This document shows positions 28,015 to 58,778 of a stretch of 64,000 nucleotides of DNA, piece by piece. Position numbers and translations under genes: made by a program. The stretch lies in assembly GCF_000003815.2 (NCBI RefSeq), contig NC_049993.1, positions 6,592,489 to 6,656,488 of the forward strand, written 5' to 3'. This DNA is from Branchiostoma floridae. Lineage: Eukaryota; Chordata; Leptocardii; Amphioxiformes; Branchiostomatidae. The number at the start of each line of letters is the position of its first letter. The stretch's first letter is position 1. Under the pieces are notes generated by a model. It made no database searches, was not told where the DNA came from, and saw nothing but the letters and a program-made list of their open reading frames with translations.

Positions 28015-28344
28015 CAGGGCTCTAGCCAGCGTCCGTTTTTCCGTCAATTGACGGAAATTTGCTGCGTGTGACGGAAAAATTTTAAAACCAATCCGTCAAC
28101 TTTGACGGACAAAAATCTGATAAAAGCTCCTTGGTGGAAGCTACAGGCTGCTTGGGGACGCCGTCCACGGCCGTAAAAGCCACACACTGTTTGTTTTGCT
28201 ATTGTTATGATTGTTGATAATGTGTGTCGGTGACCTTTCGCATACGATAATCTCATTAAAACCAGTTTTTCAAGGTCTCAGTTCAGTCTCTCTAACTCCT
28301 GGAATAGTGTTTTCGCGACAATGGGAATTGGCTGACGGAAAAAA
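28015..28344. mobile_element. hAT MITE CAGGGCTCTAGCCAGC family, copy 3 (right end lost)
   Basis: The left end and interior match the intact copies, including the 70-codon minus-strand frame at 28044-28256. The sequence diverges after the GCTGACGGAAAAA block and lacks the right terminal repeat. No target duplication can therefore be assigned. Confidence 0.8.
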
Positions 28345-29404
28345 CAGATTTGTGTTTTCCCTTGGTACATATTTCACTTTGTTCATTTTTACACTGTATG
28401 CCTTGCCACCTGTTCTCACTTGAACTACTCTATGGCATGAACATGAAGGGCAAAATACCAGACTGGTGGTTTTCTTTTCTTTCAGTATATATTCGAGATA
28501 CTCGATAGACCAACATTTTCACAATCAGGATTATCAATACTGTAACTCTTGACTTGTAACTGGTAACTTAGTTTTAGTGACTTGAGCAGTCACTATTCGA
28601 CTGCTAAATTGTAACATAACGCAGTAAAGACAGCTGCAGACATATTTTGTAATATATTTACAAACTTTAATGCCTACAAGTCAGCATCATGAGTTATACA
28701 GTTCAAAATACAATATAAGCTACTAAAATTGACAAGTTGAATAAAAGAGCATGGTTATAATGTAGGTGTACATAATACAGTCTCAGGTATGTAGTTTATG
28801 TTGTAATTGTGTGTTAAGTGAATGTTGCTTATCATGTATTATCATATACCTAGCAGGTAACAATTGCAATTGTAGCAAAAACAGGTGACATTCTATCAGG
28901 CACTTTCTTCATGAACATTGAACATCTAATTTTAACCATCTTCCTGCTATAGTATGGGCACATCAATGCACAAACTCCATGTCAGTTACATCTTGAACGG
29001 GATGTTAAGGGCCCAGTCACAATTTTGGTATGACGCAGTACGATGGCAAACTTAAGGCATAAGTAGTTGTGCATGTGTCACAAAATTCAGCTGTCTTCTT
29101 ACAAAAAAAGACTCAATTCCCTGTCTGCAATATTTTCTGCTGCAGCCTGACATAAAAATCGTAAAACGACCTACAACAAATGTAAGCGTACCATGACATA
29201 CACAAAATTTTGTCTCAGCACATGCATCTTGGCAACAAAACATGTATCTGGGGAACATAAACATGATTCTACATTTTCAACATTGTCCATTCAATGTCCA
29301 TTGAATTAATCCACATTCTTTTGCACAGATGGGCACAGATACATGATCTAGCCCCTCACTGTAGCATTGGAACTACCAAGGGTGTATTACTTAAGCGTCT
29401 GTCC
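28345..29404. other. AT-rich intergenic stretch
   Basis: No coding exon, RNA gene or bounded repeat was recognised between two hAT MITE copies. Confidence 0.45.
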
Positions 29405-29744
29405 CAGGGCTCTAGTCAGCGTCCGTTTTTCCGTCAATTGACGGAAATTTGTTGCGTCTGACGGAAAAATTTTCAAACCAATCCGTCAACCTTGACGGAC
29501 AAAAATCCTTGGTGTAAGCTTCAGGCGGCTTGGGGACGCCGTCCACGGCCGTAAAAGCCACACACTGTTTGTTTTGCTATTGTTATGATTGTTGACAATG
29601 TGTGTCGGTGCCCTTTCGCATACGATAATCTCATTAAAACCCGTTTTTCAAGGTCTCAGTTCAGTCCTTCTAATTAATTTTCGCGGTTTTCGCGACGATT
29701 GGAATTGGCTGACGGAAAAAAGTTTCGAGCTGGCTAAAGCCCTG
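29405..29744. mobile_element. hAT MITE CAGGGCTCTAGCCAGC family, copy 4
   Basis: A 340-bp copy flanked by the exact 8-bp duplication GTCTGTCC (29397-29404 and 29745-29752). The shared internal frame carries a stop in this copy. Confidence 0.9.
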
Positions 29745-31605
29745 GTCTGTCCTCATAATTAGCATGGAACTGTGGAAAAATATACATGTGTGCCAATGTC
29801 CAGGTGTAGAATAAACTGTGCTCATTTTCAATTCTCTCTCCCATCAAAGGTTTCCATAGAATATAGTTCATTAGAAATTGTACTTGTGCTGCCTTTGATT
29901 TGAAAAACTACAACAGTAATCGGAGATGCCTTTTACCTTTGCTATGATTGCATTGATTGCAAAATACTTTTTCTTTCCCTCAGCGACACTGCTATCATAG
30001 TCTTAACGGAATCCATTTTTTCCAGACAATACTATCCAATATGAAACTATAATGGAATGCATCAATCAGAGAAGCTTTTACATCTACGAGGATTGGAAAG
30101 AACTTTTTCTTCCAATCAACAATGCAATTTCATTTACGGGCACTTCAGTTAGGTGTTACATGTAATATCTACACACCTACTGATGTAATAACATGTATGT
30201 ACAAGAATACTTGGTCGATATCCTCCAAAAATCTATATTCTGACAATCTAACTTCTGAAAACATCTTAGAGACATAGACAAGGTGCAGCAAGCTCATGAT
30301 ATATTCCCAGTTCTGTAACTAAGCTAATAAATGACAACTTAAGTGTCTCTAACATAAATGAATAGCATTTGTTTCGGAATGAAATAATGCTGGTAATACA
30401 AGTGCTCCAAGAGTTAATGTGGTATGTATACATGTGGGTGTCATTAAGGTTAATCTAGTCTGAATTAGCTATAAAGTTATAGTTCCCTAATGATTCAAAT
30501 GCAACCTGGCATAGACTAGAGGAGGCCTTAGACCTGTTAACTAGGCTAAACATAGAACTCATAGGATTCGCTGATAATATGAACAGATTTCCACATCAAC
30601 ATGAAAATTCATCTCTTTTGGTAAATAACATTATGTGGAAATCAAACAGTATGCCAATACAAAAATTGAATTCATCAATTTTCAACTTAGTCCCTCAGTC
30701 CTCTTTAGCTGTCTTACCCAGATGCTATGAAGAAGACACATTATGCATGTGTTACTTCAGCAAAGAGTCAAAGGGTACTGTAAATGCATTTAAGTTTGTG
30801 GGGATTTACTTTCGCAGTAGCGGGAAAATGGAGTGTTTGAAGTGGTTTTAAGTAGACTGTAGTAAAAAACTATCATGGAAAAATTTTCACTGTGGTTTTA
30901 TGTTTGCGGTGAAGTGGCCACTGCGAAAACCACTGACATAAAACCACCGCGAACATTTCTGCATTTACAGTACATCACACATGCATAAAGTCTCCTGTCC
31001 ATAATATCTGGGGAAGATACCTGAAGGGGACTGAACGATTCAGTTTTAAAATTCCAGTGTGTCCAACTGAACCATTTTTTAGTTGGCAGTTTGATTCCCC
31101 TTCAAAGATTTCCACATCAGTTGGTGCCATGATCACAGTGTATGTAATGTTGAAAAGCTGTATTATCCATTCAATGATTACAGGAAAAAATTTCCTGTCT
31201 CTTATCATCTTCAAAATATATCTTCTTCTTCTTCCTCTTCTTAGGCCACACCAATCTACTTCACTGGTTCTCAGAAATTACAAAGTTGCAGTTAAGCAAG
31301 CACTCAAGAAGGTTGCAAGGAAAACCCCAAATAAGGCAATGCGACCTGCCTGATCGTTTGAGTTTCTCATGAATAAACAAAGGTTCAAACTAACAAAACT
31401 TGCACCTAAGTACAAGTTCAAAGACATGTATATTCACTGCCGATAATTTGCTTACCTCTATTTTCAAGTCGTTATTTCAATTTACCGTTAAGCTGTAAAA
31501 TCCGAGAACCAACAAAGAAAATTCCTGTGGCCATATGACTTTTAGATTCCGTTTGCATGACATGGCCTGCTAATGACAACATGGGAGCACGAGAGGGTTT
31601 TAGCT
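29745..31605. other. intergenic between hAT MITE and BTB-ZF A 3' end
   Basis: Apart from the 193-bp TA MITE at 30778-30970, nothing bounded was seen. Part of 31000-31605 may be the 3' UTR of BTB-ZF A. Confidence 0.4.
30778..30970. mobile_element. TA-flanked MITE of the 208-bp family, copy 3 (193 bp)
   Basis: The CTGTAAATGCA ends are inverted, with TA at 30776-30777 and 30971-30972. The interior is a diverged version of copies 1 and 2, in which several GCGG motifs have decayed. Confidence 0.8.
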
Positions 31606-34600
31606 CTACATGGGTAACCTCTCCACAGCTTCTGGCGGCAAGTGCATCCTGTCATCCGGAGCCACGGACACCGACACAGGGATGTGCAGCCTCTGTGCCT
31701 CCTCTGCCGTTATGTGGATCCTCTCGTCCGCGGACGGGTTGAACATGAGCTGCGGGATCATCTGCGGGACGAAGTTTCCCGGGTAGGTGGAAACGGCCAC
31801 CTGGGTGGGCTGGACGGGCGCCGGCCTGACGATGTGTTCGGTCTGCACGCCAAGGGACTGGAGCTCGTGGACGTCGATGGTTCTGGAGAGCTGCGCGGAC
31901 GCAGACTCCGCCTCCTGTAGGGCCTGCTGCCACTGCTGTGCCATGTCCTGCTCCTGGGGAGGGGGGCAAAACATGACGTATGTACACAACAGTTTTGGTG
32001 TTAAATGGCGAAGTGGCTAGGATAGTGGAAAGATTACAGGTTCAATTCTAGCCTGGATGCCAGACTGTTGCAGGGCCTATACAGCTCGATTTCTTGTCTC
32101 TAGGGCCAACATGAAATTCTACAGCAAACCAGTCTACACTGGTATAAAAGATAACCTTCTTGTGTTGTTTTCAATGGTGTCGTACCTGTTTCGCAACTGC
32201 AGGCTGTGTGCGCGGCTTCCTCGTACGTGAGACCGTGGTGACGCGGCCCTTTTCATGTTGTTTGACGTGGTCCTTCAGTTTGTCCGACCGAGTGTAGCCT
32301 TTTCCGCACAGAGGGCAGTGGTATGGAAAGTCCCCTGTACCAACAAACAACACAAGTTGTCAACCTTTGTATTTCTACATCAGTTGAAATTTGGAGTGAG
32401 TCTGAATGAGAATCACATTCCCAAATTCCCAGTGTCTATATGTATATCTATAGTTACCAATTTTAAGTATTGAATATTGTTAATCTTCATCAAGTGCACC
32501 AAATAAGCTCAATGTTATTTGATTTAAGGGCACTGAAGGTTGAGTTTAACAGATTTTCACTTATCAGTTTGGTCCTGATTTTGAACACTTCAACACAATT
32601 AAGGTTGTTCTTGATTAAGTTGTTCTCAAATAGAGACATAACATGACATGGAAAAAAGCCAAGGTTCTCTGTCGAATACATTCATAAACACCATTATAGT
32701 TAGTAAGAAAGCATAAAACTGTAAAAGAAAAGGAGCACAAGCAAAGACCAACCGTAAACACTCCATTTTCAGCCTATCATGAAATCAAATCCCAGCAAAC
32801 ATTTCACATTTTTCGGTATGTATGCCTATTTTCTAAGCAACAATACAAAAATAGGCCAGGAACCGATCAAGTTAATCAAGGGTAGGAAAAAATCAACCAC
32901 TGCATTTCCTTCAAACATTTCCACAGCTACAGCAGCTGTAGGTCCTGTCACCTGCAGGTGGCCTCACCTGTGTGGATCCGGCGGTGCCTCTTTAGATGGT
33001 ACGGGTCCTTGAAGTTCATCCCGCAGTCGTCGCACCTGTGGAAACACAGGCATGGTTTCAACTACAGAACCGGCAAGGCACAAGAGGGTCCCTCTCACCT
33101 GAGTGTATGCGCCGGTGACGCTTCAGCGAGTTAAGGTCTTTGAACGTCAACTCACATTCCTGACACCTGAGCAAAGGAAAAACATGCTGCCAGTACAAAC
33201 ATCTGGACACACTATGCAAAAATCCCTCAAAGGCAGGTTATGGTGTTACAGTAAAAGCCAGTTAATTGCAAAATGGATTACCACACACTTCTGTTCATTG
33301 CACTGAATCCCTAAATCCAAAATCGGTGCGGTCCAGCTGAATAATTTTGATAATAGCACGTAAAAAGTTGGCAAATGGAATTGCAATTAGATGGATTCTA
33401 CTGTACATAGTAAATAAGAAAAGTGAGAGATAGATTTTCTTCACAGCTACTGCTTTATATGGTCACATGCATAAGTGTGTGGATTATAAACAACAGATTC
33501 ATTCTGGGACAATTTACAGTATTTCTTTCATATGAGTGATACTTATAGATATATATAAATAACGCTAGTTCACTGTTATTTGCAGGAAAACCTATATCAG
33601 TTATATTTAAATCCAGTCTACTTAGGGATATCACTATCGACTTGATATCCCTAAATACCGGTTTTATATGCAACGAAGATAGGTTACCCCGCAAATAAAG
33701 GTGAACTAGTGTTATGGCCATCATGTTCTGTACCCACCTATGAGGCCTCTCATCGGAGTGCGTCCTGCGATGGGAGTACATCTGAGACGACATGGCGAAT
33801 CTCGAGCCGCACACGTCGCACATGTAGGGCTTCTCCCCAGTGTGGGTACGGATGTGGCGCACCAGGTCCGTCTTCCCCCAGAACCCCTTCTGGCAGTACT
33901 TGCAGGTGAAGGGTCGCACACCGCCGTGTTTGCGCACGTGCATGTCCAGCCCCGCCTTGGTGCGGTGTCTCTTCCCGCACTCCTGGCACTGGTAAGGCAT
34001 CTCACCTGGGGGAGCACAAAGTGTTCCACTCATGAATTTTGCACATCTAAGCTGATTAACAATAACATGAGGCCCAACATGATTACTTATAGCCTTCAAG
34101 TAGCAGCAAGGAGTAGATTCAGTCATTCTAACCCTGATGATGGTGTCTGACAGACATCAAAACGATGGATGTGAGTTCTACCCTGGTTGTATATAAAAGA
34201 ACTTTACTATATGAGTAACTACCAACCTGATGAAATTATTTTTGGATGATTAACGTGGGTTTTTTTTCCTTTCAGGCAAAGCTTTCTGAATTACCGATAC
34301 ACATCGTAAAAACCCACAGAATGCAGGTGAAGATCTGTAGATTTGTATACCTTCATTCATATAATCTAAGAAACAGAACATAAATAAAACCAACAATACA
34401 AAATGATGAGACCCTGTAATAATTGTAATCAACAGTTGATTTCGTGTTTTTTATCATCTCTCTCTTTTGGTTCATTGCATGCCTGAATCATGGCATATTT
34501 GGATGCCAATAGCATACTGAATATTCCCTGTAGAAGACAAGACGTTTTGGTCTTTAAGTTTAATCAAGATCCCGGGCAAAAACTCACCTGCTATCTGTAT

Positions 34601-37600
34601 CTGTATTTATATAGCCGGTATAACCGCCGTTTGGCGTAGCACACCAGCTGCTAACCAAGAAAATACCTGTGTGGATCCTCCGGTGGAACTTGTACGCGGT
34701 TCCGTACGCGAACTGCTGTCCGCAGAACTCGCAGACGTAGGGCTTCTCTCCGGTGTGCTTGCGTGTGTGGATGCGCAGGTTGTTGGGGTGGGCAAACTTC
34801 ATGTCGCAGTAGGTACACGGGAAGGGTTTCTCCCCCGTGTGTTTGCGGATGTGTTCCTTCAGTCGGCCCGCCTCCACAAACTTCATGTTGCAGTACTCAC
34901 ACTCGTGCAGGTTCTCTCCTGGAGACACACAGGGAAAGGAAAAACTTTAGCACTAGGGCTGGGTATCAGTACAGCGTACCGGTACAAAACTGCTTTTTCT
35001 TATTGAACCGGACCTGAAAAATTAGGTGGACCGCAGGGCTTTAGCCAGCTCGAAATTTTTTTCCGTCAGCCAATTACAATCGTCACGAAAACCGCGAAAA
35101 TTAATTAGAAGGACTGAACTGAGACCTTGAAAAACGGGTTTTAATGAGATCATCGTATGCGAAAGGGCGCCGACACACATTGTCAACAATCATAACAATA
35201 GCAAGACAAACAGTGTGTGGCTTTTACGGCCGTGGACGGCGTCCCCAAGCCGCCTGTAGCTTCCACCAAGGATTTTTGTCCGTCAAGGTTGACGGATTGG
35301 TTTTAAAATTTTTCCGTCAGACGCAGCAAATTTCCGTCAATTGACGGAAAAACGGACGCTGGCTAGACCCCTGGTGGACCGGATGTTGGACCGATTAGGA
35401 AATCAACAGATTATTTTATCAGGCATTCACACCTTTTGGCGCTTGCAGGTGGAAGAAAATAACAAGAGTGAAGTAGAGTAGAGTTTGTAGTAATTTCTAC
35501 CAAGTTTGACAGCCAATCGTACAGGTGCAGTTAGCGTTGTAGGATTTAAAAACACCAGTGTAAGTCTAATACTCCACCAAACAGATTTCTTTGTAGTGCA
35601 GGGTCTCTCCTGGAGGCAAGCAGGAAAGGCTACAACTTCAGCACATTTAAGATTCTACAACACTTATTGATAAGGTAGGGGTTTGCTCCAGTGTGCATTG
35701 GGCAACTTATATAATTATATTCTGAATACATTGATGAAGTGTAACTTAGAGTGGACTCATTTCTACCAACATCTTTTGCACCACATTCGTCCCAGTTCAG
35801 AACTTTTATTCAGCCAAATCAGTTTCGTCTTTAGTGGCTAGAGGCTAAATGACACAATTTCACGAAGTTTGCAGTTATATAAATCATACTTAGTGCATAT
35901 CGCCCTGGCAAATGTAACTTAATATCATATACGGCGGAGTGTCGAAACACACTGTTGAAAGATAGTGGATGCTATCTGAAACATACAACCATTTACAAAT
36001 TTGTCCACTTGCTTTGAGTAACTTTTGTTCTTTGTATATCTGTTCTTGACTCAACATTTAGACAATGAAGGGCTGGCAACCCTTCCCTACATGTACCAGT
36101 AATATCTTTTTAGGAAACTTGCTTCTCTGTGTGCCACTAGTTGGGAAAGGAACCCAAGAAACCTTACCTGTATGTCGTTTCTGGTGTGTGTTGAGCAGGT
36201 CTTCTGCGATGAACTGAGCTCCACAGATCTCACACTGGAAGGGTTTGATGCCGGAGTGCTTCATCTTATGCCGGTTCAACTTCCACACATCCTTAAACGG
36301 CTTGTCACACTCGTCACATTTGTACATTGCCTCTCCCGACTGAAGATGCATTTCTGGAAATAGCCAAGCAGCGTAAGAGGGGAGCCATGTTAGAGAACCC
36401 AGCAAACTTCTATATTAGAGTAGGGGTTCATCCCAGTGTGAGCAAGTCAAACCTTCTTAGTCTTGTCTTATGTGGCTTGTGCAAAACTATTGTGTTATGT
36501 CTAAAGAGGCCCAAGAACTTCTGTTTGGTTGTAAAAAATTATGGTGACAGTAATCAAGGATTACCAGGACACAAGACCTTAAAATAAAACTCCAAGTCTA
36601 ACCAAATGAGAAATACAAAAGACTTCCATAAGGTCATTGTATAAGAAAAATAGAGTGACTAAAAATTTCATTGAAAACTCTCCTTTCAACCTAGTAGTTC
36701 CTCAAAAAGGGTGTATTTGAACTTTAAGTTTGTACAATACTACTCCATAATCCATTCATACCCGTAATCCATTCAACACTAGTTCAACTTTGTTTTGTTT
36801 TCTTAACATGATGTTAAGGGATATCAAGTTGACGGACGATGCAATATTTTGGAAATAACTGCAATATTTTGAAAATAATACAATTTCAAACCACCATTCA
36901 TTGACCTGCTGTCCCTAAATACCCTGTTTCTAAAAGCAATGGACATAGGTGTTGACTCACTCTGCACATGTCGGATGAGCTCAGGGGTCCTGACGAACAG
37001 CTCTTTGCACAGTTTGCAGCGACAGTTCTTCTCCTTACTATTCTTCTTAATGGTATGGTCCGTCTTAAGATGCTGGGTTAGCTGGGACACTGTTCCAAAA
37101 CTCTGTAGGGGGTACACACATGGCAATATTTGAAAAAATTCAGCTGTTTTCTGGCAAAGAAAAAAGCATCTCACTCAGAACTCTAGCCAGTTAGAAATTT
37201 ATTTTTGCTGTTTTGGTTATTTTTATCATATTTCAAGGTTAGTATACCATGTGCTGGGACATTATTTCATGCAAATATCAGACTTATGCCATAATGGCTT
37301 ACGCAATTACGGCATTTTATTCATACTGGGGTGAATGGGAAATGGTTTGGGTTTTCAGATTTCTATGCAATTCCCTGAATTATGCAATTTGCCATAATTG
37401 CACATCTTTTCCCACCATTTTTTTCCATCAACGTTGACAGAATTGAATAACATAAATCTCTGTAATACTATGCAAAATTTCACCAAACAACAGAATGGCT
37501 AGTGTCCTTCTCCTAATCTCACAGGGCCAGGCTTTTAGCTAGGATTTAATAATATGGAGTCCAAACTTATTGGTGAGTCGCAGTAAGTGACTATTGTAGG

Positions 37601-40600
37601 GGGGGTCTGGGGGCATCCACCTTTCATGGTGCAGAGTTTTTGATGATTTCAAGTTAAAAAAAGTGCATTCTTAAGTATCCCAAGAGGCAAAAATACTGTT
37701 CCAGAGGTCACAGTAGAAGACTGTGACCACAGATGACCTGGTAGCATCCCTGGTCAATCAGAATTTCATGCTTGTCAGACGATTTTCTCCTCAGTGTAAG
37801 GACGTCCAGGGGCATCAGGTTTCTTGTTATTCTAAGAAAAGTGCGTCCAGATGACGCGTTGACGCATGCCTGGCTAAAAGCCTGCACAGGGCTCATGATA
37901 TCAATAAACCAATAGATAAACTTTTATTGGTCGTACCTTGTCCTCGCAGATGTTACACTGGAACACCTCCTGTTTCTCCAGCTCATGTAGCCGCTGGTGG
38001 CGGATGAAGTGACCCTGCTGAGCAAACTTCTGGTGACACACCTCGCACTCGAACGGCTTCTCGTCTGTGTGCTTGTTCTTCTGATGCTGCATCAGGTTTC
38101 CATACGTCGTGCAGACCTGGGGTGGGAGGGGGGTATAAAGCATTGGCAGGGCTCGAAATACCACCTGCATATGCAGGGCAGTGCATGTAAAATTGGAGCT
38201 GTGCAGGTATTTCTGGTGTCTACCTGCACCTAACCTGTACTGGTCCATGAACTGGGTTTTATGCATAAATGTTCTATGATGTAGGTGTACATGGATTGTT
38301 ATTAGCTACATTGACCTATAAAGTATAAAAGAAATAATAGCAATGGTTCCTGAAAAATTTTAGTATCCACATTTCCTAATTTCAGAGTGGTGCAAGTAAA
38401 TTTGTCTGGTGCAGGTAATTTTCCATGTTACCTGCACCAGTGCAGGTATGCAGAAAAAAGGATTTTGAGCCCTGGCATTAGTGAACACCTCAGGGAAAGA
38501 ACCCTAACCATTGTTCCCTAATATTTACCTTGCCACATTCGTTACAGGTGTGGGTCTCCGTTGAGAGCCGTTGTCTCCTACGGCGCGGGAGGGGGGCAGT
38601 GGGCGTGGTCTCGGGCGAGGCGACCTCCGCAGGCTCTGTCCGTCTTCTCTTCACCTCAGGTTTTACATCATCACCTGTGCAAACCAGGTGTGGGGGTTCA
38701 ATCATTACACAGCTCAAAATACGGCAGTGCAGGTTAGTGAACGTAGGTATTTCTGATTTCAATTGCAGTCAAACTTAACTGGCATTGGTCAAAAGTAGCA
38801 TCCACTTATTATACAGTAGTACAAGATTTCAGATGGCACCCAGCCCACAGTCAAACATTCCTTTTTTCTGGACTGACTGAAATGGATCGAAAATGGGTTG
38901 TACAGGTAAAACTTGTCTTGTCCAGTTACTGCTGTGAAGGGACTTTAAAAAAAAAGAGTATTCGAAGTCCTGCATCAAAAAAGTTTTGAAAATATTTGGC
39001 ACAGTTTTTACGATGTCAGTTTCCCTGATATACCAAGAAAGCAGTTACTCAAGCAACTGGATATGACTTTGGAAATCGTTAGACATTTCAGATAGCATCC
39101 ATACTGTGTCGCTGTCGAAAGATAGTGGATGCTTTCTAAAACATCTGACGGTTTCCAAAGCCATATCCAGGTGCTTGAGTAACTGCTACTTGGCATATCT
39201 TATTACCCAGATGTCTACTCTTCATCAAAGTAAGTTACCTTGATCATCTCCTGACTCCTTAGTGAGCATGAGTTTGTCTCCTGCTCCCACCAGTGGGGAA
39301 AACCCCACCAACGTGTCGTCTTTCGTCGCAGTGTTGGTACCAGCAGCAGCAGCTGTTGCTGACCTGAGAGTATTAGAAAAAAGAAAACAGTCATCATGAC
39401 AAACTGGTCAGCGCTTGGAGTACAAACATTAGATAGCCTCGTATCCATCTGTAGTGTAGCTGCTAAGTCTCTTTTGTCCTCTCCTCTAATAGGGATGGAC
39501 ATTTTTCTTGTGCTTGTTGCATCACTTGTTTTTTAATGTGGAAATACTCGGTAATAGTAGATTACCGTGTTGTAGTTTGACCCCGTTTGGCTGTGGGGGT
39601 GACTCGAGTGCCCTCCTTCTTAGGGTCATAATCCTCGTCATTTTCCACATCGTCCTGATAACCGAGACTGGCTTCTGATTCGCTGATGTCTTCGTAGTCA
39701 TGGTTACCATCCCCAGCTGCATTCAAGTCAATGGTGACACCTCTTTTCAGCTGCAAAAGCAGATGTAACAATATAAGATATAATGTCTGTCGGCCAAAAC
39801 CTTCTGTTTGTTTTTCAAACTGTCAATGCCAAAACTGGGCCCATTACTTTCCAATGAGATTTTATATACTCTGTATTTGCTTATACTGAAGCAAATTGGG
39901 TACAGAGGGCATTTGAATCTCACTGAGCACAGTGAGAAGATTATAAAAGCTGACAAAACAATCTTTTGCTCAACACACTTTGTCCACAAAGAGTGTAATG
40001 ACAAACACAAAAAAGTTACAACTTTGACAGTTTCTCTATGATTCTCAATAACATAAGAATAGCATTTTTTTTTCATTTCCTTTACTACTTAACATGAATT
40101 TGTAATATGTGCACCAAAACAAGATAGCAGAAACATAGCATGGAAACAAACTAGTGTTCAAAACCCTGCTCATCAATTTCATAAATGGTATGACATGATC
40201 AAAGAATAGTAAATCTCCAAGGCCCGTACCTGTGATTGCAGGTATTTGGAGCAGATGTCTGAGATGACGACAATCTTCAGCACCTGTGCAGCCTCCATCA
40301 CACTGGCCACATTGTTCTCATCCAGGGCCAGCTTGGACGTGTAGGTGTGTTCTAACACCTGCAGAGAAATGCATTTACAAAGGTTAGACATTCAGGTAAA
40401 CTATATTCATGGGCAAATCAGTCTCTATAACAGGATAAAATTCAGAGATTACTTCTGGATGATGCTGAGTGATTTTAACATGCCAGAAAGCTATCTCTCC
40501 TGTCAGGTTGTCTACATGTTATGTAGTGGCAGACATGTTGATGGCAACTTTTCTGAAAATATAAATATTTACATAATGGAGGCCTACAAGCTTCCATTTT

Positions 40601-42248
40601 TCTATTGACCTTGCACTTCACTTGACTTGGCTTGACAGTATTATATAATTCATGAACATGTATCTGCTGCTGCTACAATTCATTTTCAGCCACAAAAAAT
40701 ACAAACCTTTGTGCCTTTACAGTTTACACTGCACTTTTTTATGCATATCATCCTGCAGGTAGGGACAAAAAAGAACCCACCTGGCTGAACCCCTCAGCAG
40801 TGATGTCCGTGATCTCCACAAACGGGATGTGTTTGACGTCCTTCCGTGTGAAGACGGAGTTGAAGTAGCTGCTGCAGGCCGCCAGCATGGACTTGTGCGC
40901 GCGGAAGCGCCGCCCCTCCACGATGATGGTCACGTCACACAGCAGCCCGTCCTCCCGCTGCTGGTTCAGCTTCTTCAGGATGTCCTTGCTGTGGTGCGGT
41001 GTCTCGTGGATGAACTTACGCATGGAGGATGTGGCGGGGGAGGTCACCATGGCGGGGTCCTCCACACTGGTGGAGGGTTCAGGGGGGTGGGGATCCTGGG
41101 GAGGGAAGCTTTAGCATCAACTTTGTGGAATAAAAATTAAGATACTATTAACAAATCAAGAATTACAATATGCTTCCTATCTGGCTATCACCTTCAGCTC
41201 CTACCATACTACTGCCTCAAGGAAAAGTGACCTGCAGGCCAATTTGAGATTCTCATGAATTAATAAAGCTTCAAACAACAAGTGATCCAATGAAACTATA
41301 ACCATTCAGCAACACAAAATTAAGTATAGTATTATTATTATAGTCTGTCTTATTAACTTTAATTTATCATAAATCTGACCATTCCATTAGAATTCATGCC
41401 ATTATTTTTTCATGTGCCGAAAATGTGCAATCCCTTAAATTTTGGAAAATGTGCTATTTCCACTTAGTATGGAAATTCTTTTCGTTAACAATTGAGAATT
41501 TCTTTGATTACATAATTTTCTTTAATTGTGCTCATAAAGATGGTCATCAGTTTGTTGCTCCAAATTATGTCTTGCACCAATCTCGTTAAAACTGGGGACC
41601 TTTCCTAAATCTAAAACCTGTCCAGTCGCTAGTCGCCACACCTGGCCGTCCCCTCACAGACAACAGGGAACCACCCCTGACACTTCTTGGAAAACTTTCG
41701 CTGGGGGTCATTCAGCACTGATCCCGGTAACATGTTCCGCTTTCTGCAATCGCAAACCGCCAAAAACAAACCGAGATCTGGTTTACACATTCTGCTGGTC
41801 TTGTGGGGAAAGCTTTGCTTTCTTTCTTTCATCTGGTTCCGATTTGTAGAGAAGGAAGTCGGCAGTGCGCAAGACAGGCGTCCCTTCCAGACAAGGCGCC
41901 TACAATGAATAATGAAGTACCCCCAACGTAGCGGACAACTCGACGGCAGAAACCAGTCGATATTTACCCTAAATCTCGAGTTTTGGGGGAGACTAAACCC
42001 ACAGTTTGAATCGGAAAGTGGCTATGGAGGTTGTTTTGGTGCGCTTTCGCTGAAAATGACCCCCTCGCGGCGGGGATCCATTCATTTGCCGGGCGGGGTG
42101 TCCTGTGGCTGCGTGGGGGCCGACCGATCATGGCGGAGACAGTGCCACGCACAAAAACAGCTCAGCAGAAAACTCCATCCACCGCCCCAACACACCCCGA
42201 CGACACGCCCAGCGGAGATAGGAGGTGAATCCAGGCGGTACTTACCAT
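31606..42248 (-). CDS. BTB/C2H2 zinc-finger protein A with mutually exclusive finger exons
   Basis: Coding exons, 5' to 3': 42246-42248 (ATG only), 40781-41095, 40230-40358, 39566-39750, 39239-39363, 38529-38674, 37937-38116, 36961-37102, 36168-36353, 34667-34918, 33738-34005, then either 33099-33166 or 32968-33035, 32186-32334 and 31606-31953. The total is 2496 nt, about 831 aa. The BTB domain (LCDVTIIVEGRRFRAHKSML, then AACSSYFNSVFTRK) spans about residues 33-145. A basic stretch (VKRRRTEP, PRRRRQR) precedes 14 C2H2 fingers per isoform, from about residue 290 to 692. A 115-aa tail carries SRTIDVHELQSLG and PQLMFNPS. The family binds DNA and homodimerises through BTB, usually as nuclear repressors; the targets are unknown. 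An alternative start is the ATG at 41050. Its closest relative is the neighbour at 53184-57892. Confidence 0.88.
32004..32056 (+). mobile_element. tRNA-like SINE relic in BTB-ZF A last intron
   Basis: TGGCGAAGTGG (A-box-like) is followed about 35 bp later by GGTTCAATTC (B-box-like). The short spacing resembles a tRNA head of a SINE rather than a functional tRNA. Confidence 0.4.
32968..33035 (-). other. alternative exon B of BTB-ZF A (one zinc finger)
   Basis: A 68-nt exon, GT-AG bounded, that completes an Arg codon and encodes C-DDCGMNFKDPYHLKRHRRIH-TG. It enters in phase 2 and leaves in phase 1, exactly as exon A does. The helix residues -1, 2, 3 and 6 are D, Y, H and R. It can replace but not follow exon A. 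Confidence 0.85.
33099..33166 (-). other. alternative exon A of BTB-ZF A (one zinc finger)
   Basis: A 68-nt exon, GT-AG bounded, that encodes C-QECELTFKDLNSLKRHRRIH-SG. Helix residues -1, 2, 3 and 6 are D, N, S and R, so base-contact positions 2 and 3 differ from exon B. Entry phase 2 and exit phase 1 match exon B. The intron between the two is only 63 nt (33036-33098). Confidence 0.85.
33563..33713. mobile_element. palindromic MITE, GCTAGTTCACCTTTAT family
   Basis: The ends CGCTAGTTCAC and GGTGAACTAGTG are inverted, as are the internal CCTATATC/GATAGG and TAGGGATATC blocks. It lies in the intron before exon A, ending about 25 bp from the 5' splice site of the exon at 33738-34005. Confidence 0.65.
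34955..35600. mobile_element. hAT-like relic (GGTACCGGTAC family) carrying a nested hAT MITE
   Basis: The left part resembles the 2925-3450 element (GTACCGGTACAAAACTG). The right part resumes at GGATGTTGGACCGATTAGGAA and ends around GATTTCTTTGTAGTG. The 35034-35373 MITE interrupts it. It lies in the BTB-ZF A intron between exons 36168-36353 and 34667-34918. Confidence 0.6.
35034..35373. mobile_element. hAT MITE CAGGGCTCTAGCCAGC family, copy 5 (nested)
   Basis: A 340-bp copy with the exact 8-bp duplication GTGGACCG (35026-35033 and 35374-35381), whose target lies inside an older hAT relic. A 66-codon plus-strand frame (35144-35344) lacks 12 nt relative to copies 2 and 3. Confidence 0.92.
35940..36040. 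repeat. decayed copy of the TTACTCAAGCAACTGGATATG family
   Basis: CTGTTGAAAGATAG-loop-CTATCTGAAACAT is followed by CCACTTGCTTTGAGTAACTT, an aged version of the right arm at 26600-26700. Confidence 0.45.
36779..36950. mobile_element. partial palindromic MITE, GCTAGTTCACCTTTAT family
   Basis: CTAGTTCAACTTTG at the left and TACCCTGTTTCTAAAAGCAA with GGACATAGGT at the right match the family. It ends about 10 bp from the 5' splice site of the BTB-ZF A exon at 36961-37102. Confidence 0.5.
37528..37884. mobile_element. hAT MITE with CAGGCTTTTAGC ends, 357 bp
   Basis: The inverted ends CAGGCTTTTAGCTAGG and CCTGGCTAAAAGCCTG are flanked by the exact 8-bp duplication CACAGGGC (37520-37527 and 37885-37892). 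It lies in a BTB-ZF A intron and is a family distinct from the CAGGGCTCTAGCC MITEs. Confidence 0.9.
38147..38474. mobile_element. hAT-like MITE with CAGGGCTCGAAAT ends
   Basis: CAGGGCTCGAAATACC at the left and ATTTTGAGCCCTG at the right are inverted, and the interior repeats CCTGCAC and GTGCAGGT motifs. The flanks (AGCATTGG and GCATTAGT) only partly agree. A relative is at 51749-52108. It lies about 30 bp from the 3' splice site of the exon at 37937-38116. Confidence 0.65.
39030..39233. mobile_element. TTACTCAAGCAACTGGATATG-family foldback at a splice donor
   Basis: Inverted arms (TTACTCAAGCAACTGGATATG and CATATCCAGGTGCTTGAGTAA) are present with the usual right end CTTCATC. The flanks GTTTCCCTGAT (39019-39029) and GTTACCTTGAT (39234-39244) agree at 9 of 11 positions and look like a target duplication. 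The right copy contains the 5' splice site of the exon at 39239-39363. Confidence 0.6.
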
Positions 42249-53183: not shown

Positions 53184-56100
53184 TTAGTGTCCGTATGGTA
53201 AGCCACTTTCCTCTGACGAGGGGTTGAGCATGAGCTGAGACATCATTGGTGGAAAGGTGGGGGGGAGGTTATAAGGACCGTACCCTTGGGGTATGGTATG
53301 TGGGGGTACAGGGGGTGGCGCAGGGACAGGGGGCCTGTGAGGGGTGGTGGGATCAAATCCTAGGTTCCTTAGCTCCCCTATGTTAATGGTCCTGGACTGC
53401 TGATGGTACAGGGTTGTCTGTGGCTGTTGCTGGGCGGTGGTGACCGGTTCGTTGTGAAGCTCGGGAATCCCGAGGGGCGGGGGCCTGTTCTGCTGGGCCT
53501 GGAGCTGGTCTACCATCTGTAAGGCTCGAGCATGCTGCTCCTGCAAGTCTTGAATGTTCACATCGATGGAGGAGGTCTGGGGGTACGGCCTGTTGGGCAC
53601 CTCGTCTGGAGCGCTAGACGACTCATTACTAGCGTCGCTGGCGTAATCTGCACTGAGATCATGATGAGACGGCGATGCGGACTCTTCTTGGTTGGCAAAC
53701 TCTGTGGCTGAAGGAGGCTCTGGTTGTACTGACTCCACTCCAGACATTGACGGGTACTGGTCTTCCCGTGTTGGGTAGTTCGGCCCCTTTCGGCGAGGTT
53801 TGGGCACTTGGGCGACTTCGTTCTCTCCGTGAGACTTCAGGACGTGTTCGCGGAGCTTCCCGAGTCGTGCGTGGCCCTTCCCGCACACGTGGCAGCGGTA
53901 CGGGAGGGAGTGGGTGCTCCGGTGCTGCTTCAGGGTGTGGAGCTGGCTGAACGTCTTACCGCAGACTTCACACTTGTGTTCTCGCACGGCCGAGTGTGTG
54001 CGCTGGTGAGCGTACAGACCGGAAGTTGTGGAGAAACGTGAACCGCACAGATCACAAACGTACGGTTTCTCACCTAGGGCACAGTTTGTACAAAGAGCTT
54101 TTCTCAGACAGGCATTCCATTTGTATCTGCTGTACATGTACATGTTTATGAAATTTTTGCAATCATAACATGTTTTAACTTGCCCAAACTGTAAATTCCT
54201 CATGAGGAAATAAGTTTTCTGTTATTACTCTCTAAATGCATCAACAGCTACAACAGATTTTTATTACATTTTCTTATGTTTTATAGCATTTTAAGCTTTC
54301 CCATTTGAATACTCACTGAGGAACAACTCTGCAGAGAAACTACAGTAGTACTTTAACACGTTAAAGTTATGTGCTTCTAATCTACCAGAACCTTTAGGAA
54401 ACTGTGGGGACAAGGTTATTAGTAAGAGGGCCATGCAGCTTTATTTTAGGGGAAGGGGTCTCACCTGTGTGTATCCTTTTATGCCGTTCGAGTTCCACTC
54501 GCACAAAGAAGGCCTGGGGACACTGGTCACATTTGTAGGACCGTTCCATATTATGTTTCTTGACATGGGTCAGTAGGATGGACCTGATTCGGAACTGCTT
54601 GCCACAAATCTCGCACATGTGGGGGAACTCTCCTGTGTGCATCTTACTCATGTGCATGTCATACTGGTTTCTGTGCACAAAGGTGGCGCCGCACTCGCCA
54701 CACGTGTAGGGGTGCTCCCCCGTGTGCAGCCGCAGGTGGCATTTCAGGATTTTCTTTGATTTGAGCTTTGCTCCGCACACCTCACAATCATAGCCATCTG
54801 CAAAGGAAGGGGAAAAATGTCGGGTGAGAATCACAGAACTAAAAAAACCTCTTCAACGGATTTTTGTCATATTCTGTTTTAAAATTGAAGGTACATCTAT
54901 GGAGGAAAAGAGTTGAGCTTTGGCCTCCTAGCAGCTTCTATCCAGAGTGCAGTTGTAGGCTTGGTGGTTTGTGAAAATAAATAAAAATCTTTGAATTTGA
55001 AATAGTCAGAGATGAGAGTTTATTAGTACATATGTTTTGGTCTTTGGGGGAAAAACTGGCTAGCTTTTTAATCAATGATAAAAAGATAGCTTCTCTTGCA
55101 CAAACCAGAAGGCTGGTTTTGACATCCTTGTATATTCAACACCAAATTGTGTTAAGAACCGTAAGAAGCCCCATTGACGATGAAAATGAGAGTGAGGTTG
55201 CAGAGCTGTTAGCATACACATTTTTCTTCTTCCAAAATTGTTCAGAACTCCGAAAGTCCTGGGTAGAAAGGAGGCCCAAAAAACGTTTTGTTACACCCAT
55301 GGTGATGAAAATTAACAAGAATTACAACCAAATGATCCAGAAACAAGAGGGAGTACCAGGGTTATTTATTATTGTTGAAGAACAGAAGGTGTGATGACAG
55401 AAGTTCTATAGATATCAGTTACTGCGTTAGATATGTGTAGTTAAGAACAGATTACCTGAAGTGGTTGTGAAGAAAAGCAAATTCTACAAGATAGGAATGG
55501 TTTGATTCTAACACATGGGGCACTGTAACTCTAACAAGCTGTTCAGTTGTGAGTTTGCTTTCTTAATACATGTGAATTTTTTTAGTGCTGATTATAATGT
55601 GACATCTTGTTTTGTTGAATAGCACCAAAGATCACAAACTGTGCTTGCAATTGGAATCTTGTGTAATTTGTTGGGCTTTCTCTCAGTAGAAAACATGTAT
55701 ATTGTATCAATTTGTATGTGTATAAGAAGTGAGTTCAGTAACTCAAATAACAGATTGGAACCAGTCCTCACCTGTCTGCTTAAAAAAATAATTGACAAAA
55801 AAAGAGCGAATAAGTCGCTGCAGTATCTGGCTTGTTCAAAGGAAACTGCTTAATAAGTAATGAGTATATGTATCTTATTGTGATGTATACATATTTAGAT
55901 TTGAACACATATTGCAAAATACAATCCTTAGGAAATAGTTACATTTTTGACAACATTTTCTCTTCCCACAGTAATTTACATTTCTTTTTCATGGCACAGT
56001 TGGCTCTCATCTTACAAATACACATATCATCAAGTCAGGTTGGTACAACATACATACCACAGCAACAATGATTTCCTCCCTCAGGGAAGTTTAATACTTT

Positions 56101-57892
56101 CTACCAGCTTTGGATTTGTTTCCAAGAGTGTTTGAACTAGAATAGCTCAAAGAATATGACTGGACTGTAACTGGCTAGAATATTGGCAATCACAAAAAGT
56201 AGTTGTCTTATGTTATGGCAAGCCTCCAGCATCAGGGCAATGTAAACTTGGATCCATAAACCAATCAGACATATCAGGCAGATTACCTGAACCCTCTTGT
56301 TTCTTTGCAGCCTCCTCTGCAAGAGACGCGGCGATTGGCGTTCCGGTGAGCGTGGACATCCTCGACCTCTCGTGTACGCCCATGTGGCGCTTTAACTTCC
56401 ACTTGTCCTTGAAGACTTTGTCGCAAATCTCACACTTCTTCTCATCCTTCTTGACATGGCTGGACATGTGGCCATACAAGGCAAAGTGCTGCTGGAAGGA
56501 CTTCTTGCAAAGCTTGCATCGGAAGGGATACTCTTCATTGGTGTGGGTGTTGTGCACATGCTGCATCAAGTCAGTCAGTTCTTGGAAATCCGTGTTGCAA
56601 ACACTGCATTCGTACGGATTCCCGTCCATTTGTATCTTTTTCATCTGTAAGGTGGAGATTTTTTCCATCTGGCGGTTTACGGCGGGGTTGGACTTTCTCG
56701 GCGTGGATACCCGGGTGTGGGTGACTTTGTGTTTACTCAACTTCCACTGGTCGGAGTACTGCTTTCTACAATGTTCACATTCGTATGGCGGCCCACCTAA
56801 GTGCTTTTTCAGATGGGTGTGTAGGGCAACTGACTCATTAAAACACTGTCCACACACTTTACAGCGACAGAGCGCCTCTGTTTCTTCCTCATGTAATTCC
56901 TTCATGTGGTGGGCCAACAGGGTGTGCACAGCAAAGCCAGTGTCACACTTACTGCACTCAAATGGAAGGGTGGACTCGATCTCGTGCTGTTTCTCGTGTC
57001 GCTGCATGTGTCCGAACTGAACAAACTTCGTCCCGCAGATCTTGCAGCCGAACGGCTTGACCTTGCTGTGCGATCTGACGTGCTGCTTCAGGTTGTGTAG
57101 GTTGGAACAGATCTTCCCGCAGACTTCGCACGCCAACGATCCTTCCTCCAAGCCAGTTGTGTTCGAAAAGCTCACATCAGACGCACTTTCTTCCCCACTT
57201 TCATCTACCTTCTGCCTTTTCAAGGAAGGCATTTTGATTTTCAATGGAGCCACTTTTCTTTCATCTCCACCTTCTCCACCACTATGTATCTTTCTCTTTG
57301 AGTGTCCTTCTTCTAGTCCGAAGCTTGAATGAGAGCCGGGAAGTTCATAATCTTCATCATCATCATCATCGTTATCCTGTTGGCCATCTGTCGACACGCT
57401 GTCGTCTAGTTGTCCTTCATTCCCCAACACGTCCCACTTTTCCTCATCACAGTCACTGAAACTCTTACTGTGCTCACTCTTATCCTCCCCTGGCCTCTCC
57501 TGCTTGTTCAACTTGTGGAGAAACTTTGAACAGACTTCCGAAACAGAGGTGACCTTGAGAAGCTGTGCTGCCTCCAACACCGATCCAACGTTGTCGGGGT
57601 TCAAGTCCAGACTCGAGGTGTATGTGTGTTCCAGTATCTGACTGAACCCCTCGGCTGTGATGTCTGTGATTTCAACATATTGCATGCTACTGACCTCCTT
57701 CCTGGTGAACACGGAGTTAAAGTAGCTACTACAGGCAGCAAGAACTGCCCGGTGTGCCCGGAAACGCTGCCCGTTAACCAGGATGGTGACGTCACAGAGC
57801 GAGTCTTCGATGCGTTGTTGGTTCAGGTTGTGTAAGATGGCTTTGCTGTGACCCCTGGACTCATGTCTGTACAGTCCTGATGTGGATGCCAT
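53184..57892 (-). CDS. BTB/C2H2 zinc-finger protein B (tandem paralogue of A)
   Basis: Three coding exons: 56287-57892 (exon continues to 57900), 54465-54797 and 53184-54073. They total 2829 nt, 942 aa. The BTB domain (LCDVTILVNGQRFRAHRAVL, then AACSSYFNSVFTRKEV) spans about residues 14-130. An acidic region follows, with a run of five to six Asp near 180. There are 15 C2H2 fingers: eight in the first exon, four in the second and three in the last. A Pro/Gln-rich tail carries SRTINIGELRNLG and MSQLMLNPSSEE. Both introns sit in phase 1, the second in the HTGE linker between fingers, a position shared with gene A. The rest of the gene lacks the introns of A, which suggests intron loss. Upstream, a non-coding exon ends at 58779. 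Role as for A, probably a nuclear DNA-binding regulator; targets unknown. Confidence 0.92.
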
Positions 57893-58778
57893 GGTAGCCT
57901 GTAAAATGAAAGTTCAAAGTTCATTTAAAATCTTTCTGTGTTTCCTTGTGGAACGCTACTTTCAGTCAAGCTAACGAAAGTGGAGACTGTTACTTACTAA
58001 ACAATATATGTAGCAGAGCATAATCTAATTTGCTGGTTGTCATCATACACGGCCGTGTGGCGTGTTGGGTACACGGTACCGTACACCCGATCCCTCGATC
58101 TCGGAAGCAACGCGTAGTCCGGACAGTTATTAAGTGGGAGACCACCTAAAGAGGACCAGATGCTGTAGCCGTACCAAAAATTCCGAAATCGTCTTCCGGG
58201 AGGAACGTAAAATGGGGGTCCCGTGCTCAAGGAGGAGCCTTGACCATGTAAATCAGCCTCATTACCAACTTTTAACCTAAGCAAATATGACTGCTATTGA
58301 AATACATGTAGTTTAATTATCACTGTTGCTCCATATTTAACAAAACCCCGAAGGTTTGGTCAGCTGTTTGTATGACGCCCACTTTGGCCTTCGCCCAAGA
58401 GGTGTCGCCAAAAATATGGTAATCTCCTTAGTAGCTCCTTTCCTACGATACGCCCCTTGTGGGACAAATATGTTACTCCAAAACAACTCTAACCCTCCTG
58501 TCTCTATGTTAGGAAGTGGTGGCTATGTTCCTTACACTTGACAAACTTGCGATCTAGATAATCTCATAAAATAATCGAAAAGAAACGTCTCGCAAAGATC
58601 GTCGAGGCAAACAAAGAAAAATGTCCGCCAACGCCCCACACTGGCCCTGAACCCCCGACAACGTCACGGCGCTTTCGGGGGCAATTCGACGGAGTTGTCT
58701 GACAGTCGCCCCCGAACACAGTCCCGATATCTACCCCTCGCCCGTCTGCCGTACATCGAGACCTCAACACGTCCTTAC

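Follow-up and report, generated by a model that had tools for sequence, protein, structure and literature searches.

Can a chordate BTB zinc-finger gene exchange one finger within its array by splicing? The question is raised by two adjacent 68-nt exons, A and B, in a gene of Branchiostoma floridae (gene A, or BTB-ZF A), which lies in the window, the whole stretch of 64,000 nucleotides analysed here. Our preferred reading, to which we assign a probability of roughly 0.8, is that A and B would be mutually exclusive exons that arose by tandem duplication, and that the choice between them changes the residue of finger 13 that reads the middle base. The gene and the parts of it that matter here are as follows:

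31606 to 41050, minus strand: gene A; 12 coding exons common to both forms, with either A or B added; a BTB domain and, by our own count, 14 fingers
33738 to 34005, minus strand: upstream exon common to both forms; fingers 10-12; ends in phase 2
33099 to 33166, minus strand: exon A, 68 nt; finger 13a (CQECELTFKDLNSLKRHRRIH)
33036 to 33098, minus strand: intron between exons A and B, 63 nt, GT-AG
32968 to 33035, minus strand: exon B, 68 nt; finger 13b (CDDCGMNFKDPYHLKRHRRIH)
32186 to 32334, minus strand: downstream exon common to both forms; finger 14

The start of gene A was chosen as the first ATG, at 41050, in a first exon that extends further upstream. An N-terminal BTB domain (PF00651, 2.7e-29) and zf-C2H2 matches were found with Pfam, which makes this a BTB-ZF gene. 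Naming its vertebrate orthologue was attempted and given up; the top BTB matches among solved structures were ZBTB17 fusion constructs, followed by ZBTB7A, and were not decisive. The A-form and the B-form are each 815 residues long, with no internal stops and 14 fingers by our own count.

The coordinates, equal lengths, equal phases and AG/GT ends that the sequence-only reading had given for the two exons all held, as did its claim of one C2H2 finger per exon (Pfam zf-C2H2, 27.1 bits for A and 32.6 bits for B, against a cut-off of 25.2). Both exons are preceded by AG, and their donors are CAG/GTGAGA (A) and CAG/GTGAGG (B). Scored with an approximate matrix, both donors fell within the top 10 of the 4,080 minus-strand GT sites in the window, a ranking to be read with the imperfection of the matrix in mind, since at least one of those ten sites (34006) is no donor in the gene model. 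Among the 13 donors scored in gene A with approximate frequencies, that of B ranked second and that of A third, so that neither looks weak. A pattern derived from A and B themselves (AGGTGYNNNNNNTGYNNNNNNNNNTTYAARGAY) matched only these two exons in the whole genome (513 Mb, 431 contigs, with the window on contig 15). An assembly duplicate or second haplotype was ruled out: the 199-bp region spanning both exons has a single genome match, and 23 of 68 bases differ between the two exons. No third copy of the exon was found in the window by a finger-pattern scan for canonical spacing, and none was noticed in the intron translations (stretches of at least 20 residues). A genome-wide count of tandem finger exons by start pattern was discarded, as ordinary arrays match too (820 + 746; reversed control, 101 + 81).

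What would change in the protein is a short segment of one recognition helix. By the helix numbering of C2H2 fingers, positions -1 to 6 are DLNSLKR in exon A and DPYHLKR in exon B, with the differences at positions 1, 2 and 3 that had been noted earlier. A swap would thus leave the Asp (-1) and the Arg (6) in place and replace Leu-Asn-Ser by Pro-Tyr-His at 1-3. According to the usual zinc-finger code, position 3 reads the middle base, and His at this position favours G. In one triplet, then, the middle base would change from weakly specified (A) to G-preferring (B), with the outer bases unchanged. The identity of the two helices at -1 and 6, and the modest contribution that one finger of 14 may make, lend some plausibility to a different reading, in which both exons are used but their fingers are interchangeable, both proteins having the same binding sites. 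We consider this unlikely, given that the Ser-to-His change falls at position 3, the usual reader of the middle base.

The two exons were also compared for signs of selection on both copies. A and B are identical at 45 of 68 nucleotides, with equal length and phase, as expected of tandem homologous exons, and their alignment was better than that of 200 of 200 shuffles. The differences are concentrated at third codon positions (13 of 23, compared with 6 of 23 at first and 4 of 22 at second positions; Fisher P = 0.007). Nine amino-acid changes were observed where 13.9 are expected for 23 random changes (P = 0.0029), and when 23 random changes were made to A, the finger motif stayed intact and stop-free in only 0.02% of 20,000 simulations. 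By NG86, dN between the exons was 0.30 and dS was saturated and gave no value; the selection test rests on 22 codons only. Outside the exons, and splice signals aside, four comparisons of the flanks were no better than shuffles (as-good fractions 0.475, 0.66, 0.87 and 0.475). On this comparison of the two sequences, A and B are old duplicates, both maintained as fingers by selection at the protein level; that they are old and preserved only where coding matches the prediction of selection on both. The lower finger score of A (27.1 as compared to 32.6 bits) would fit a reading in which one copy is a relic, or a rarely used duplicate, and the other the functional exon. We regard this as improbable, however, in that both copies have stayed intact with strong splice sites despite saturated synonymous sites and diverged flanks.

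Mutually exclusive use of two maintained exons is also what the reading frame would impose. When A is joined to B, a TGA is met within B at the seventh codon past the last complete codon of A; when both are skipped, the frame is lost and a stop follows 82 nt into the next exon. Inclusion of both or of neither thus breaks the frame, as the sequence-only reading had maintained. Its stronger statement, that exactly one exon can be used, stands for the normal exon ends and is limited to them because of a cryptic donor within exon A (AAT/GTGAGT, exon end 33156, score 8.8), use of which would permit an 11-nt in-frame microexon and a product that has lost the finger. The premature stops precede the last junction by 197 nt (A+B) and 67 nt (neither). 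Nonsense-mediated decay usually follows a 50-55-nt rule for the distance from stop to last junction, which both predicted messages fit, the skipped one narrowly, and any such message would be removed by this route. The same two stops could serve as an output valve, with A+B or skipped messages made and then decayed to tune dose and not DNA preference, but this is highly improbable, because dose control does not require selection to preserve a finger in both copies, and three of the replaced residues sit in the recognition helix.

For the preferred reading, the short intron between the exons offers a candidate means by which exclusive use might be enforced. At 63 nt it differs from all other introns of gene A, which are 202-1,249 nt long. 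Away from the donor, the only TnA candidate for a branch point lies at intron nucleotide 41, and it is a poor one, without the yTnAy consensus; it is 41 nt from the 5' splice site of A and 22 nt from the 3' splice site of B. The reported mammalian minimum from donor to branch point is about 50 nt, a figure that may not be the lancelet's, and exclusivity has been attributed to a branch point too near the upstream donor in the mutually exclusive exons of OGDH (4a/4b; PMC7969005) and alpha-tropomyosin (PMC6692369). In those genes the branch points were mapped, whereas the A/B intron has a candidate only. Splicing of A to B may be sterically disfavoured, because the 63-nt intron sets the 5' splice site of A about 41 nt from the likely branch point of B, too close, we infer, for both to be occupied at once.

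Other means of control were sought in the same region. Three local segments (the two donor regions and the A-B intron) did not fold into RNA hairpins better than shuffled sequences did (z = 0.30, -0.97 and 0.28), and a regulatory hairpin at the donor of A, attractive by eye, was dropped on these grounds. The 571-nt intron upstream of A contains two GCATG motifs (33470 and 33187, one of them near the acceptor of A) where 0.56 are expected, an excess too weak to claim RBFOX control of exon A. This intron also holds an imperfect inverted repeat at 33559-33715, with 59-nt arms that are 76% complementary; it may be a small mobile element. Elsewhere in the window, three similar stretches, each roughly 350 bases long and with ccgtcaattgacgg motifs, were noticed by eye at 28020-28380, 29400-29760 and 35040-35400, one of them in opposite orientation, which looks like a dispersed repeat.

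A neighbouring gene shows what occupies the same slot in a relative:

53184 to 57913, minus strand: BTB-ZF B, tandem paralogue; exons 57913-56287, 54797-54465 and 54073-53184; 15 fingers

This gene is upstream of gene A in the same orientation, and its three-exon model is open throughout. Its last exon (54073-53184) includes three consecutive fingers, of which the first and third resemble fingers 12 and 14 of gene A. The finger equivalent to the slot (53972-53910) is a single one between matching neighbours, with no intron around it; the slot therefore spans a single finger in the closest relative observed. This finger resembles the two exons to about the same degree, with identities of 41 of 63 nt and 10 of 21 amino acids to A and of 39 nt and 9 amino acids to B; over the same comparison, 41 nt and 13 amino acids are identical between A and B themselves. 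A query with the last fingers of gene A gave at least 174 protein matches, the best at 51% identity among the 150 of 4,743 candidates that were scored. As a separate observation, reading through the donor at 56287 of BTB-ZF B leaves an open frame to a stop at 56213, making possible a short eight-finger protein without the last seven fingers.

The architecture and frame logic of the sequence-only reading are thus upheld, and exclusive use is favoured by selection on both exons, by the single finger in the slot of the paralogue and by the 63-nt length of the intron. The expected outcome would be two 14-finger proteins with the difference confined to finger 13, so that the animal can probably switch between two slightly different DNA readers. 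A fuller version, in which a regulated, sterically enforced swap of a single internal finger retunes one triplet of a long chordate array and is old enough to occur in other lancelets, is more tentative, with the odds somewhat against it. If the swap is real, splicing would adjust DNA specificity in the smallest modular unit, a single finger, and leave the BTB domain and the remaining array constant, and the two forms provide a natural protein pair for asking what share one finger has in target choice within a 14-finger array.

Insect BTB genes of the lola type have alternative 3' finger exons. A and B are not terminal exons of the lola or fruitless type: both have donors and rejoin shared exons, and the three introns adjoining them contain no AATAAA or ATTAAA. 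Exons 18 and 18b of FOXP1 are internal and exclusive too, and they alter both the DNA-binding domain and the motif that it prefers (PMC11701043). There the domain is a forkhead and not a C2H2 finger, and regulation and binding have been demonstrated, whereas the A/B pair is known from sequence alone. The exons Ab and 3 of U2AF1 are likewise a duplicated, exclusive pair in which both or neither leads to stop codons and decay (PMC5224494), but what is exchanged is part of the UHM domain of a splicing factor. In COE/EBF an HLH exon was duplicated in tandem within a transcription-factor domain, as in A/B, but the duplicate is mandatory in vertebrates and not alternative (PMC2394523). A possible precedent is an oyster paper in which mutually exclusive events are counted for transcription factors. 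In the literature searched, which covered few subscription journals, no precedent was found for an internal swap of a single C2H2 finger; this lends slight support to the view that such a swap is new, exclusive duplicated exons as such being known (U2AF1, FOXP1). One BTB gene was found in print whose finger exons are exclusive: fruitless of the shrimp Penaeus monodon, in which zinc-finger exons 6 and 7 (761 and 197 bp) are called mutually exclusive (PMC8858584). Those exons are terminal, because each has its own stop, and they are unequal in length; A and B would instead exchange one internal finger and leave the C-terminus common to both proteins.
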